Assembly: GCF_000217715.1 (NCBI RefSeq)
Contig: NC_015666.1
Coordinates: forward strand, 2,244,270 to 2,308,269
DNA: 64,000 nucleotides
Direction: 5' to 3'
From: Halopiger xanaduensis SH-6
GTDB lineage: Archaea; Halobacteriota; Halobacteria; Halobacteriales; Natrialbaceae
This document shows, one piece after another, positions 4,723-14,327 of the stretch. Below the pieces are notes generated by a model, which saw only the letters and a list, made by a program, of their open reading frames with translations, did no database searches and had not been told where the DNA came from. Within the stretch, counting starts at the first letter, position 1, and each line of letters starts with the position of its first letter. The position numbers were made by a program, and so were the translations under genes.

Positions 4723-5589
4723 TTAGTCCCGCATCTTGTCCGGCATCGTCGAGAACCGGGCCGTCCCGCGCATATCCGAACGCTTCGACGGCGGCGGTGC
4801 CATCGTCGAATACCGCGTGCCACTCCCCGAGGTGCCGCGATTGCCGCGACCGCCGCCCGACCCGAGGTCCGCTCCGAGCAGGCCGTCATCCGACTCGTCG
4901 CTTGCCTCGTCTTCCGGTTCCGACCCACTTTCGCTCTCGGCGGCCGCTGATTCGTCGGATTCGCCAGCCGCTTCGGATTCGTCGGCATCTCCGCCACCGC
5001 CGAGCGCTTCGAGTCGTTCCTGAAGCTGGCTCACGTCGTCACTGAAATCCGTGAGCGACGACGACATCGCGGACCGCAATCGCTCCTCGAGGTCGCTGGT
5101 TCCGCCCCCAGCGTCGCTCGTCGCCTCGTCCGCTTCCGCACCGTTCGAGTCCTCGTCGGCTGACGACGCAGCGGATTCGTCGCCTGACTTTGACTCGGCC
5201 TCGACGGAATCGTCCGAACCGGCGCCACTGGAATCGCCGATACCTGCGCGAACGCTGCCGATGGCGTCCTCGAGGCCCTCACCGCGGTCGCCGAGCCGGG
5301 AGAGGTGGAGCAACCGTCGAAGATCGTCGACCTCGTCCGGATCGCCCTGCGAGATCGCCGCCGGAATCGAGTCCGGTTCGCTCCCGTCGGGGAGCGTATC
5401 CAGTCCGACCGCCTCGAGTAGCTCGTCGGGGTCCGCGGAGTCGAGGATTTCGTTCGCTTCGTCGGCGAGGTCGCGGATATCGTTCGCCGTCGATTCGTCG
5501 TCGGCCGTGGATCCGGCCACCAGCGAGCCGCTCTGTTCGTCGGCTCGCTCCAGCAGGTCGGTGACCCGATCGTGTAGTTGTTCGCTCAT
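4723..5589 (-). CDS. Acidic low-complexity protein with a duplicated C-terminal motif
   Basis: 288 residues, last gene of a four-gene cluster. The N-terminal 110 residues look helical and folded (MSEQLHDRVTDLLERADEQ; DPDELLEAVGLDTLP; DLRRLLHLSRLGDRGEG). Two Ser/Asp/Glu/Ala-rich linkers flank a helix at about 176-205 (DLEERLRSAMSSS; VSQLQERLEALGG). The end carries a repeated motif: RYSTMAP...SDMRG (259-275), then RFSTMPDKMRD (278-288). That motif is basic and aromatic in an otherwise acidic protein, so it may be a docking tail. No signal peptide or membrane segment is visible. I do not recognise a family. Confidence 0.75.
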   Translation of the reverse strand: MSEQLHDRVTDLLERADEQSGSLVAGSTADDESTANDIRDLADEANEILDSADPDELLEAVGLDTLPDGSEPDSIPAAISQGDPDEVDDLRRLLHLSRLGDRGEGLEDAIGSVRAGIGDSSGAGSDDSVEAESKSGDESAASSADEDSNGAEADEATSDAGGGTSDLEERLRSAMSSSLTDFSDDVSQLQERLEALGGGGDADESEAAGESDESAAAESESGSEPEDEASDESDDGLLGADLGSGGGRGNRGTSGSGTRYSTMAPPPSKRSDMRGTARFSTMPDKMRD

Positions 5590-5715
5590 GGATCTCGTAT
5601 GCCGTTGGGTCGTTTCGCGTCGTCTCGCGGCGCTTCGGTCTCTCCGGGCCGGGCCAGTTCCCGGCCCAATGCGCCGTCGCGCCGAGCGGGCTTCGATCGC
5701 CGAACTCGAACGGTC

Positions 5716-6729
5716 TTATGACGCCTCCGACTCCGCTTTCTCGTTCTCGTTCTCGCTCTCGTTCGAGTCCGACTCGTCTGTCTCGGAGTCGCTCTCGGTC
5801 GCCTCCTCGTCGTCACCCGCTACAGCCTCGATGATCTCGTCGGTCATCTCCTCGCGGCTGAGGTTCGCCTTGACGCCCACGTCCTTGGCGATCGACTGCA
5901 GATCCTGGTACGACATGATCCCGAGGAAGTCCTCGAGCGTCTCCCGCCGGAGGTCCTCGAGGTCGTCCGCCGAGGGTTCGGACTCGCCTTCCTCGTCGGT
6001 TGTGCCTTCGTCTTCACCCTCGGTTTCGGCGTCCGCAGTATCCTCCGCTTCGGGCTCCTCCTCGGCGTCCGACTCGTCCGCTTCGGATTCGTCTTCGGTT
6101 GCCTCCTCTTCCTCGTCTTCGTCGCTTTCGGCGTCCGGTTCGGTCTCCCCTTCGGATTCGTCCTCGTCGCTCTCGAGCAAGCCGTCGAGGCCGCTGGCTT
6201 CGCTGGCCGATCCGGCGGCCGACTCGACGGCGTCTCGAGCGCTGGCCGCTTTGCCTTTGGCCTCGGATTCGGCTTCGCTCTCGGCATCGTCCGAGTCCGA
6301 GTCTGAGTCCGCGTCAGCTTCTGATTCCGCATCGCTTTCGCCCTCGTCGCCGCCCTCGAGCAGCCCCTCGAGGCTGCCGCCCTCGGTGACGTCCTGCGCC
6401 AGCGACCGAACCGAGTCCGTCGCGTCGTTTTCTTCGACGCTCTCCCGGATGGCGTCGCGGATCGCGGCTACGAGGTCCGACTGCATCTCCTTGCGATCCT
6501 TCCCTTCCTCGAAGCCCTCCGCGAGCGCCTCGTGGATGCCGCGGCCGATCGCCGCACCGAGTTCGCGACCGACGCGTTCGCCGAACTCGCGACCGACCGC
6601 AGCGCCGACCTCGCCGCCGTCGATGCTGTCCTCGATGCTGCCGTCATCGAGGAGGTCGGCGACGTCGAGCTGGTTGCTCACCTCTTGGCTCACCAGCTCC
6701 TTCAGTCCGCTCTTACTCACGGCGCTCAC
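5716..6729 (-). CDS. Glycine-zipper protein with acidic linker and SAP-like end
   Basis: 337 residues from a GTG (6727-6729); a GTG at 6720 is also possible. Residues 20-37 (QLDVADLLDDGSIEDSID) lead into a perfect tetrad zipper, glycines at 38, 42, 46, 50, 54, 58 and 62. A helical segment follows to about 115. Residues 130-255 are a Ser/Asp/Glu linker containing a GLLE motif. Residues 265-303 (DFLGIMSYQDLQSIAKDVG and on) resemble SAP or Rho-N helix-extended-helix domains. A paralogous zipper lies in the gene upstream. The zipper helix is charged, so I infer oligomerisation or surface binding rather than membrane insertion. Function unknown. Confidence 0.75.
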   Translation of the reverse strand: MSAVSKSGLKELVSQEVSNQLDVADLLDDGSIEDSIDGGEVGAAVGREFGERVGRELGAAIGRGIHEALAEGFEEGKDRKEMQSDLVAAIRDAIRESVEENDATDSVRSLAQDVTEGGSLEGLLEGGDEGESDAESEADADSDSDSDDAESEAESEAKGKAASARDAVESAAGSASEASGLDGLLESDEDESEGETEPDAESDEDEEEEATEDESEADESDAEEEPEAEDTADAETEGEDEGTTDEEGESEPSADDLEDLRRETLEDFLGIMSYQDLQSIAKDVGVKANLSREEMTDEIIEAVAGDDEEATESDSETDESDSNESENENEKAESEAS

Positions 6730-6780
6730 CTCGAGGGCGGGTCGTCCGTCGGGTGTCGGGAAGCTGCTGCCACGTCATGG

Positions 6781-7368
6781 TCAGTCCTCCTCGGCTTCGG
6801 CCGCTTCTTCGTCCGCGTCCTCGGCGTCGCCCTCGGACGAGTCGCTGTCGTCGCTCGTTTCGGATTCGTCCGCCTCGCTCTCGTCGTCATCGGCGGATTC
6901 CAACTCGTCGTCGGTCGACTCGTCAGTCTGTTCTTCGTCGGTGTCTTCGTCCGCCGACTCGTCGGCCTCGTCCTCGGTTTCCTCCTCGTCTTCAGACTCG
7001 TCTTCGTCCCCGGCTTCGTCTTCAGTTTCCTTCTCGCCCTCGGATTCGTCTTCAGCGCCTTCTTCGTCCTCCTCTGCGTCGGACTCCTCTGCCTCGGATT
7101 CGTCCTCGTCTTCCTCGGTAGTCCCGAGCAACTCTTCGACGACCATATCGCCGATCGTCCGGCCGATGGATTCGCCGACCTTTCGGCCCACGAGAGCACC
7201 GATCTGGCCCCCGAGGGCTTCTCCGAGGGGCTGATCCTCGTCGATCTCGTCCTCCCACTGCGTCCCCTCGACGAGGTCGTCGACGTCGATGTTGTCGGTG
7301 ATCTTTTCGTAGTCGATGCGCTGGACCATTGACTCGGACTTGGTATCGGTGTCGGATTCTCCACTCAT
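6781..7368 (-). CDS. Short glycine-zipper protein with acidic tail
   Basis: 195 residues. Residues 18-45 (IDYEKITDNIDVDDLVEG...) parallel the pre-zipper segment of the neighbouring 337-residue protein. A perfect (Gxxx) zipper follows, glycines at 49, 53, 57, 61, 65, 69 and 73 (GEALGGQIGALVGRKV...). After VVEELLG near 82 everything is an Asp/Glu/Ser tail of over 100 residues. The gene starts 2 bases after the stop of the preceding gene, so the two are almost certainly cotranscribed. It looks like a paralogue of its downstream neighbour without the SAP-like end. No known family recognised. Confidence 0.75.
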   Translation of the reverse strand: MSGESDTDTKSESMVQRIDYEKITDNIDVDDLVEGTQWEDEIDEDQPLGEALGGQIGALVGRKVGESIGRTIGDMVVEELLGTTEEDEDESEAEESDAEEDEEGAEDESEGEKETEDEAGDEDESEDEEETEDEADESADEDTDEEQTDESTDDELESADDDESEADESETSDDSDSSEGDAEDADEEAAEAEED

Positions 7369-7370
7369 CG

Positions 7371-8894
7371 TTAGGCTGCCTCCGCTGTCGCGTCGGATTG
7401 ATCACTCGCCTCTTCCTGCTGTTCCTCGGGCTCTAACTGATCGATCATTTGCTCGAGTACCTGGCTGACGACCGCTGACACGAGTTCCTCAACTGGCAGG
7501 CTCGGTATGAGTCCGGCGAGCCCCTCTTTCGCCCGGCTGCCGGCGGCGGATATCGGACCCGGCGATTCGGCCGTTTCGTCCTCGCTTTCGTCGCCTTCCT
7601 CCGCCTCCTCGTCCTCCGCTTCGTCCGGCGTCTCTTCGCCCTCTTCGCCCTCTTCGCCTTCGCCTTCGGCCTCGTCCGGCGCTTCCCCTTCTTCGCCGTC
7701 GCCCGCTTCTTCCGTTTCCTCCGTCGGCGCTTCATCCTCGCCTTCGCCGCCGAAGAGCCCGCGGAGCCACTCCACCGGCTTGCCGAGAATCCCCTTCACC
7801 CAGCTGAGGGCCGAAGATATCCGACCGCCGGATTCAGCTTCCTCTTCCGCTTCTTCGCCTTCGCCCTCGGCCGCTTCCTCACCCTCGGCTTCTTCCTCGC
7901 CGCCGAGTCCAAGCAGCCCCAGCAGCTTGTTGAACAGTTCCTTCGGCTTGCTCACCAGGTTGCTGAGGAACTCCTTCGGCTTCTCGAGCAGACCGCTGAG
8001 CATCTCCTTGGCCCTCCCGGGAATCTCCTTCAGCTTCCCAGGAACCTTCTTGAGCATCTCGATCGGCTTGCTCAGGAGCTCTTTCGCCTTGTCGATCATC
8101 GCACCGGGGCCGTCGAGTAGCCCCGTCACCGCGGACAGAAGATTCCCGAGCAAATTGTTACCGCCCGGTCGCGCGGACACGTCGAGCTGGAGGGGGTTCA
8201 GGTTGACCTCGAGGCCGAGTAAATCGAGGAACAGACCGTCGAGATCGAGGTGGAGGACGCCCGAGGCGTCGTCGCCTTCGTAGACCTTTTCGGCGTCGTC
8301 GGCGTGCCCCTCTTCTCGATTGTCCTCGGTGAGTTCGCCGGTATCCTCGCCGACGTCCGGTTCTTCCTCTTCGTCGGCTTCTTCCTCCTCCCCGGCCTCC
8401 GCTTCTTCATCTTCGCCCTCTTCACCTTCCTCCTCGAGATCCTCTTCTTCGGCTTCTTCCTCGAGGTCTTCTTCGTCTTCCTGCTCCTCGGTTTCCTCGT
8501 CTTCTTCAGCTTCTTCCTCGGCTCCTTCTTCGGTTTCGTCGGCCTCTTCCTCAGTTTCCGCTTCCTCGTCTTCGGCTTCTTCGTCCACCTCAGCCTCTTC
8601 TTCGGCCTCCGTTTCCTCGTCTTCGGCTTCTTCGTCCTCTTCGGCCTCTTCTTCAGTCTCCGCTTCCTCGTCCTCAGCTTCTTCGTCCTCTTCTTGCTCA
8701 GCTTCCGCTTCTTCGTCTTCCGCTTCCTCGGCACCCTCTTCTTCAGCCTCCGAGCCCTCTGACGCAGATTCTTCTTCAGCTTCCGCTTCTTCGCCGTCCT
8801 CGTCCACAGGTTCTGCTTCCGTTTCCTCGGGGTCGTCTCCGTCCCCTTCCTCCTCGTCAGGTTCCGACATCTCCGCCTGCCCGCCGTCGGTCAT
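7371..8894 (-). CDS. Large acidic protein with amphipathic KPxE-helix repeats
   Basis: First gene of the cluster, 507 residues from the ATG at 8894. An ATG at 9011 adds 39 arginine-containing residues unlike the rest, and an ATG at 8870 is also possible. Residues 10-190 are almost wholly Glu/Asp/Ala. Residues 214-262 (LHLDLDGLFLDLLGLEV; ARPGGNNLLGNLLSAVTGLL) resemble a short domain I have seen in other haloarchaeal and bacterial hypotheticals. Residues 265-331 form Lys-rich amphipathic helices with repeats KPIEML, KPKEFL and KPKELF. A fourth, KPVEWL, lies at 372. Another acidic stretch and a hydrophobic helix (SLPVEELVSAVVSQVLEQM) end the protein. Confidence 0.7.
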   Translation of the reverse strand: MTDGGQAEMSEPDEEEGDGDDPEETEAEPVDEDGEEAEAEEESASEGSEAEEEGAEEAEDEEAEAEQEEDEEAEDEEAETEEEAEEDEEAEDEETEAEEEAEVDEEAEDEEAETEEEADETEEGAEEEAEEDEETEEQEDEEDLEEEAEEEDLEEEGEEGEDEEAEAGEEEEADEEEEPDVGEDTGELTEDNREEGHADDAEKVYEGDDASGVLHLDLDGLFLDLLGLEVNLNPLQLDVSARPGGNNLLGNLLSAVTGLLDGPGAMIDKAKELLSKPIEMLKKVPGKLKEIPGRAKEMLSGLLEKPKEFLSNLVSKPKELFNKLLGLLGLGGEEEAEGEEAAEGEGEEAEEEAESGGRISSALSWVKGILGKPVEWLRGLFGGEGEDEAPTEETEEAGDGEEGEAPDEAEGEGEEGEEGEETPDEAEDEEAEEGDESEDETAESPGPISAAGSRAKEGLAGLIPSLPVEELVSAVVSQVLEQMIDQLEPEEQQEEASDQSDATAEAA

Positions 8895-9151
8895 CACCCT
8901 TCGATCCGTTCGAGCCGCTCGGTCACCGTCGCGACGGTCGCTCGAGGCGTCCGCGACCTCCACGGGATCGGGACAGTCCTCGGAACCATCATCTTCTAGG
9001 CGCGCTGTCATTATGTGGGGAAAACACGAGAGTGAGCGTTGTGGTGATTTCCCTTGCGTGTGCGACTGACCACCGCGTGCCGGCCGGTTTCGAGAACTGA
9101 TAAAAAAGCGGAACGGCGGAACCGATCGATCGAGTCGACCGTCCCCGAATC

Positions 9152-13217: not shown

Positions 13218-14327
13218 TCAGTAGTCGTACTTCGTCTCGTAGCCCCGCGGCGTGACCATCCGGTCGTCCCAGACGTAGGTGTCCTCGGTGCCGACGACGA
13301 TCGTCGTTGTCATGTCGATAATCTCGCTTTCCCCGAGTTCCTCGAGTTCGCCGAGTTCGGTGATCATCACCTGCTCGTCCTCGCGGCCCGCGCCGTGGAC
13401 GATGCCGACGGGCGTGTCGGGGTCGCGGTGAGTCAGCAGGATCTCGCAGGCCTTCTGAAAGTTCTCGCGGCGCTTGCGGCTCCACGGGTTGTAGATCGTG
13501 ATCGCGAAGTTCTCACTCGCGACGGAGTGGAGCCGCGACTCGATCTCCGGCATCGGCACGAGGTGGTCCGACAGTGAGATCGAAACGGTGTCGTTCACGA
13601 GCGGCGCGCCGAGGCGTGCGGCGCAGGATTGGGCTGCGGGAACGCCCGGCACTACCTCGAAGTCGACCATCGAGGCCGTCGCGCCCTTCGACTCGAGAAT
13701 CTCGAGCGCCAGCCCGGCGAGCGCGTAGACGTTCGGGTCGCCGCTGCCGACGATGGCGACGTCGTTGCCCGCCAGTGCGCGGTCGATCGACTCCTCGGTG
13801 CGGGAGACCTCGCCGCACATCGGCGTATCGTAGATATCGTCGGCCTGCTCAGTGATCTCGTCCGGGATGAGTTCGATGTAGGTCGTGTAGCCGACGATGT
13901 GGTCGGCCTCGAGCAGCGCGTCCTTGGCGCGCTCGGTCATCCCTTCCGGGTGACCGGGACCGAGGCCGACGGCGATCAGTTGGCCGGGTTCGGCGTCGAA
14001 GTCCTCGATCGTCGCGCCGACCTCCTTCTCGTTGCCGCTCGAGTCGTCGGAACTCGAGGCGCCGCACTTCGATCCGCTCGAGGACGACGAAGACGAACTC
14101 GAGGAGCCGCCGCACTTGGAACTACTCGAGTCATCGCTTCCGCTCGAGCCACCGCATTTCGAACCGCTCGAGTCCGAGTCGGCGCTCGAGGCCTCGCCCT
14201 CGGAACTGCTGCTCGAGGCCCCGCATTTGGTGGTGCTCGAAGAATCGGTTTCGTCAGTGCTCGAAGCGCCGCACTTCGAGGTCGATTCGCCGTCAGCGTC
14301 GGAATCGGTATCGGTGTCCGTGCTCAT
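13218..14327 (-). CDS. cbiH: CbiH precorrin/cobalt-precorrin-3 C17-methyltransferase with KCG-repeat N-terminus
   Basis: 369 residues. From about 115 on it is a tetrapyrrole SAM methyltransferase: VGLGPGHPEGMT, GSGDPNVYAL, EVVPGVPAAQSCAARLGAPL, SLSDHLVPM and IYNPWSRKRR. It is closest to the CbiH/CobJ ring-contraction enzymes. Residues 1-105 are unusual: a Ser/Asp/Gly stretch with five KCG(A/G)SS repeats at 18, 34, 57, 71 and 87. These regularly spaced cysteines could bind cobalt or Fe-S, which is inference. It follows a second cbiH by 12 bases. Confidence 0.9.
   Translation of the reverse strand: MSTDTDTDSDADGESTSKCGASSTDETDSSSTTKCGASSSSSEGEASSADSDSSGSKCGGSSGSDDSSSSKCGGSSSSSSSSSSGSKCGASSSDDSSGNEKEVGATIEDFDAEPGQLIAVGLGPGHPEGMTERAKDALLEADHIVGYTTYIELIPDEITEQADDIYDTPMCGEVSRTEESIDRALAGNDVAIVGSGDPNVYALAGLALEILESKGATASMVDFEVVPGVPAAQSCAARLGAPLVNDTVSISLSDHLVPMPEIESRLHSVASENFAITIYNPWSRKRRENFQKACEILLTHRDPDTPVGIVHGAGREDEQVMITELGELEELGESEIIDMTTTIVVGTEDTYVWDDRMVTPRGYETKYDY

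Follow-up and report, generated by a model that had tools for sequence, protein, structure and literature searches.

Organization of the A-B-C-D gene cluster

The window analysed here is a stretch of 64,000 nucleotides from Halopiger xanaduensis SH-6 (NC_015666.1, positions 2,244,270 to 2,308,269), and the subject of this report is a run of four successive minus-strand open reading frames (ORFs) within it, termed genes A, B, C and D. Gas vesicles are protein-walled flotation bubbles, and from its occurrence, its gene order and the homology of D the A-B-C-D cluster very probably belongs to the haloarchaeal gas-vesicle system as an accessory module. Gene A (7371–9011) encodes a protein of 546 amino acids (aa) that would represent a new gas-vesicle-associated family; it is followed by genes B (6781–7368, 195 aa), C (5716–6729, 337 aa) and D (4723–5589, 288 aa). 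The spacings between A and B, B and C, and C and D are 2, 51 and 126 bases, and the ORF list agrees on this point with a preliminary description of the locus as four consecutive same-strand genes. That description had gene A extend only to 8894. The most likely start is the ATG at 9011, 39 codons further upstream, because homologues in related genomes keep both the DNA around this ATG (AATGAC) and the V-x-T/P-DGG motif that follows it at the protein N terminus. Searches of Pfam and NCBIfam with the four proteins returned no match above the cut-off.

A conserved DNA element of about 30 bases (CGCAYACGCAAGG..AA..ACCACAACGC; 9036–9064, minus strand) lies just upstream of gene A, as seen in an alignment of 25 loci. 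It is kept across the family, is present as a single copy in the H. xanaduensis genome, and is probably a promoter or operator. A search of the same genome found no copy near the gvp operons, and the proposal that the element is common to gvp promoters was rejected on the basis of its single occurrence.

Genes of related genomes were called by a simple ORF script and by profile matches. Among 146 genomes of the order, which are not independent of one another, 47 contain homologues of gene A and 26 contain homologues of gene C. A contig scan yielded 69 named loci distributed over Haloterrigena, Natrinema, Natrialba, Natronococcus, Natronorubrum and Halopiger, and further over Haladaptatus, Halococcus, Halocatena, Haloarcula and other genera. 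The order and orientation A-B-C-D are the same in about 50 of these loci, so that the conserved arrangement which the preliminary description had proposed looking for in other haloarchaea does exist. Pairwise ratios of nonsynonymous to synonymous substitution (dN/dS) of 0.13–0.54 indicate purifying selection on the acidic proteins. Together with the recurring gene order and a conserved 65-aa core in protein A, these ratios show that the cluster is not an artefact of low-complexity sequence. Haladaptatus halobius carries three copies of the module (L165, L167 and L172), one chromosomal and two on plasmids. One of these two plasmids also has an annotated gvp cluster about 12 kb away, and RefSeq lists the four genes at the module site there each as "hypothetical protein". 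A plasmid search with the A core gave no match at the sensitivity used, although a plasmid copy of A exists.

Predicted structure of the A, B and C proteins

Protein A consists, in order, of an acidic linker, the 65-aa conserved core, a set of amphipathic helices and a C-terminal helix. The core (VLHLDLDGLFLDLLGLEVNLNxVxLDVSARPGxxNLLGNLLSAV; 8100–8294, minus strand) has a mean column identity of 73% and 12 invariant positions in the alignment. The helices (7905–8132, minus strand) appear as proline-punctuated amphipathic repeats of 11 residues with the pattern KPxExLxxLLx. Pairs of prolines separated by 11, 22 and 33 residues number 49, 45 and 20, compared with means of 10, 9 and 7 in shuffled sequences, and a helical periodicity of 3.6 likewise stands out above the shuffled sequences. 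In the AlphaFold2 (AF2) model of A the mean predicted local distance difference test score (pLDDT) is 59.8, with the repeat helices at about 70–80. A GvpA-like hairpin was considered for the core and rejected (hhalign probability 0.5% against the profile of GvpA, a member of the PF00741 family GvpA/J/M). Homologues of A in other families reach 620–840 aa (L081 5985–8303, L084 6517–9039, L179) and contain many more amphipathic units; the number of repeats is thus variable, as it is in GvpC.

Proteins B and C form a pair of paralogues. B consists of a glycine-zipper helix and an acidic tail, and the zipper (7150–7212, minus strand) has six invariant glycines, one per four residues, at positions 53, 57, 61, 65, 69 and 73. 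The AF2 model of C predicts a glycine-zipper helix of 38 residues (residues 38–75; 6505–6618, minus strand; invariant G46, G50, G54 and G58) and then a second helix, giving a helical hairpin that is followed by an acidic linker and a C-terminal SAP-like domain. This domain (5803–5970, minus strand) is modelled with a pLDDT of about 90 and has the helix-extended-helix fold of the SAP, DEK-C and Rho_N domains. The solved folds nearest to it in Foldseek are DEK-C and SAP (DEK: root-mean-square deviation 0.9 Å over 41 columns, E >1), and the C homologues match Pfam SAP_new25 and Rho_N weakly. Neither the family nor the fold scores are significant alone, and a nucleic-acid role for the domain is only putative. 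Searches of PDB sequences with profiles of A and of C produced nothing meaningful. With the modelled domain of C, the zippers of B and C and the proline periodicity of A, the folded parts that the preliminary description had read from the three sequences (KPxE amphipathic helices in the first gene, glycine zippers in the second and third, a SAP-like segment in the third) all held up.

Gene D and its relation to GvpI

The same description placed none of the four genes in a family of known function, and gene D departs from this. Over most of its length the D profile aligns with that of GvpI from gvp clusters with an hhalign probability of 99.5% (E 9.1e-23); in a control alignment of D with the equally acidic C, the probability was 0.1%. 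Hidden Markov model (HMM) profiles of D and of gvp-cluster GvpI retrieve each other, and a tree built from 45 D and 31 GvpI sequences divides the two groups at a branch with 100/100 support. GvpI occurs in a long form (e.g., Nmag_0338/Htur_2370) and in a short basic form in Halobacterium; the Natrialba long form has been described as a GvpI with an N-terminal extension of >200 residues (PMC3403918). D has the same N-terminal helical part and the same FRxxL-type helix, and ST(M/V)P motifs recur in its tail as they do in that of GvpI. Such ST(V/M/L)P tail motifs are also found in the short Halobacterium-type proteins.

The duplicated RYSTM/RFSTM tail noted earlier in the fourth gene (4723–4818, minus strand) was recovered as two R-x-S-T-M motifs. 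The tail of GvpI proper carries three ST(V/M/L)P motifs followed by (I/L)YGxR; the motifs of D correspond to two of these three, and neither a third motif nor the IYGRRFE end is present in D, which argues that D is a paralogue of GvpI and not GvpI proper. D also coexists with a normal gvpI: in H. xanaduensis the slot between gvpH and gvpJ is held by a separate GvpI. GvpI is a binding partner of GvpH and, in split-GFP assays, of GvpC and GvpL as well (PMC7688916, PMC9501494). It is known to limit the length of the vesicles, and its loss results in over-long ones (PMC7688916).

Association of the cluster with gas-vesicle genes

Among the 146 genomes of the order, gvpA-type genes are present in 46 of the 47 that have gene A (phi 0.76, Fisher 1.7e-22), and the lone A-positive, gvpA-negative genome is an assembly only 70% complete. 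In a sample of 125 genomes of the same family as H. xanaduensis, 108 have both A and gvp genes, none has A only, 4 have gvp only and 13 have neither (Fisher 1.6e-14); these co-occurrence statistics ignore kinship. A and gvp are jointly absent in several genera of the family (g2, g7, g58 and g61), and because this joint absence recurs, it argues against mere shared descent as the source of the co-occurrence.

The strongest single piece of evidence for membership in the gas-vesicle system is the gene order in two genomes of the same family (L198 and L199), where the whole of A-B-C-D directly follows gvpA-gvpO in the same orientation, beside gvpFGHIJKLM. At L083/L156 the four genes adjoin a complete gvp cluster, and parts of the module lie in gvp clusters at L081, L084, L086–L088, L091, L148, L151, L152, L184 and L185. 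In other families, homologues of A, B and C are found within or beside gvp clusters, with gvpA, O, F, G, H, I, J, K, L and M as neighbours. The gvp cluster of H. xanaduensis itself lies about 2.1 Mb from the module (G000:C3:133112-138422) and comprises gvpO, N, A and gvpF–M, without gvpC; its gvpA and gvpN almost touch. Compared with the classical gvpACNO plus gvpDEFGHIJKLM set, the genomes with A-D have a gvp set without a recognised gvpC; A, B and C are not part of the classical set, and in genomes of this family the module is usually encoded elsewhere. The preliminary description had named a match of all parts to a known complex, such as gas-vesicle proteins, as contrary to its view of the cluster. 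Such a match was found for D, with GvpI, and for none of the other three, as A, B and C match no known Gvp protein. They are additional to the known Gvp set, and no earlier description of them in the gas-vesicle system was found in the open-access literature.

Relation to GvpC and proposed function

GvpC is an amphipathic helical protein with 33-residue repeats that lies on the GvpA ribs (PMC10185304), and haloarchaeal GvpC has repeats of 32–38 residues, a linker and a C-terminal domain (PMC10903477). Protein A resembles haloarchaeal GvpC (PF05465) in its amphipathic helical repeats, its acidic region and its tie to gvpA, and perhaps works in a similar way; its repeat differs in having 11 residues with prolines instead of 32–38. 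Protein C resembles GvpC in its layout of helices, acidic linker and compact C-terminal domain. PF05465 (Halo_GVPC) gave no match to any of the A-D proteins at E values up to 1, and none in the H. xanaduensis genome or in the sample of its family; by these PF05465 searches, A-D does not belong to the GvpC family.

The two also differ in where they occur. Among the gvp-positive genomes of the order sample, 46 have A only, 6 have a recognised GvpC only (strong PF05465 matches) and none has both (p 1.8e-4), although PF05465 misses divergent GvpC proteins, so that this exclusivity may be overstated. Within one genus, G056 has A without GvpC and G064 has GvpC without A. In the A-negative genome G156, of the same family as H. 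xanaduensis, a 416-aa GvpC-like ORF that PF05465 does not detect is located between gvpA and gvpN, together with a short GvpI. The A-D genes do not occupy this place between gvpA and gvpN. In five gvp loci of the family (L099 among those tested) there is no room for gvpC there, because just a few bases separate gvpA from gvpN. The gvp regions of Natrialba magadii and related ones are described as lacking gvpC (PMC3403918, PMC4390858).

Two comparisons concern the C-terminal domains. The SAP-like domain of C and the C terminus of the GvpC-like protein of G156 (L201 10746–10931) align weakly (probability 25%, E 8e-4), which is suggestive only of a possible homology. In Halobacterium-type GvpC the C-terminal end is a ROS/MucR-like zinc finger (L109 4601–5749), where C has its SAP-like domain, and a DUF5763 Cys/His motif stands at the start of GvpO (L099 6304–6876); counting C, three gas-vesicle proteins have modules of nucleic-acid-binding type.

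Taken as a whole, the best explanation of the cluster is likely to be a gas-vesicle accessory module, for which we propose the following mechanism. The amphipathic helices of A, with their 11-residue units punctuated by prolines, would lie on the shell that the GvpA ribs form, like the GvpC repeats of 32–38 residues; by analogy, amphipathic 11-mers are what a shell binder would be expected to have. The glycine zippers of B and C would join these proteins into helical oligomers that present their acidic tails and, in the case of C, the SAP-like domain. D would dock the set to the GvpH/GvpL assembly platform, and A-D together would take over from GvpC the task of strengthening or shaping the shell. 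This replacement of GvpC, and with it the physical location and binding of the proteins, we put forward tentatively, at somewhat less than an even chance. A further version, to which we give a similar chance, is that A, with B and C, is an independently evolved coat unrelated to GvpC, that GvpC has been replaced by it in several lineages, and that D is a dedicated docker, with the module often lying far from gvp.

Several observations weigh against the gas-vesicle interpretation or parts of it. For most members of the family there is no linkage between the module and gvp, and an upstream element of its own precedes the module. Published descriptions state that the species in question do not form gas vesicles, and Natrialba, Natrinema, Halopiger and Haladaptatus are listed in reviews as having gvp clusters without gvpC and no gas vesicles seen (PMC4390858). 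In one review table (PMC9501494) gvpACNO is given for some of these species, which is at odds with the accounts in PMC3403918 and PMC4390858. AF2 leaves the core of A unfolded, with pLDDT <50 over most of it, and by hhalign this core is not homologous to GvpA. Finally, both A and a recognised GvpC are missing from 11 of the gvp-positive genomes sampled from the order, so that neither protein is indispensable for having gvp genes.

The main rival to the replacement of GvpC is an assembly, nucleation or size-control role, in which the module would be a second chaperone set resembling GvpI and GvpH and not a coat; this, too, may be so, though we would not assume it. It fits the paralogy of D with GvpI, which works with GvpH, GvpL and GvpF in an accessory complex, and the position of A and B between gvpH and gvpI in L088, L148, L151 and L152. 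In L198, L199, L184 and L185, however, the module comes after gvpA-gvpO, on the side where gvpC lies in other species, and both the exclusivity with GvpC and the amphipathic 11-mers of A speak for a coat.

The preliminary description had expected proteins building an assembly, coat, granule surface or condensate. Of these, the evidence above agrees with an assembly of proteins, namely the gas vesicle, and nothing was found in support of a condensate. A role for A-D in a condensate or on the surface of polyhydroxyalkanoate (PHA) granules is very improbable: amphipathic helices and glycine zippers would suit phasin-like coats and the H. xanaduensis genome has a PHA synthase, but the synthase is missing in 6 of the 18 A-positive genomes sampled from the family and present in both A-negative ones, and 12 of the 47 A-positive genomes of the order are without it (phi 0.25, vs 0.76 for gvpA). 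A tie to cobalamin synthesis can be dismissed almost entirely, since the CbiX/CbiH-type genes, DUF3209 gene and PQQ-like gene that stand before A in the window, and also in several other genomes, give way to different neighbours at many loci (e.g., L069–L072 and L074–L080) where A-B-C-D stays together, while the module follows the presence of gvp and no A-D was seen with cbi in gvp-free genomes.

Nearly every gvp-bearing genome of the family keeps A-D, and studies restricted to the gvp cluster of such species would miss four genes, of which three represent unnamed families. Assignment to the gas-vesicle system gives a biological setting to four widespread "hypothetical proteins" and a testable reason for including them with gvp clusters, possibly as an alternative to GvpC for tuning vesicle stiffness.

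Other features of the window

Two further features were noted by eye. At the left edge of the window, two convergent genes resemble integrases of the tyrosine recombinase type (811–2982). A cobalamin-type methyltransferase encoded at 13218–14327 on the minus strand is extended at its N terminus by a Ser/Asp-rich stretch in which KCG(A/G)SS motifs, possibly metal-binding, recur.

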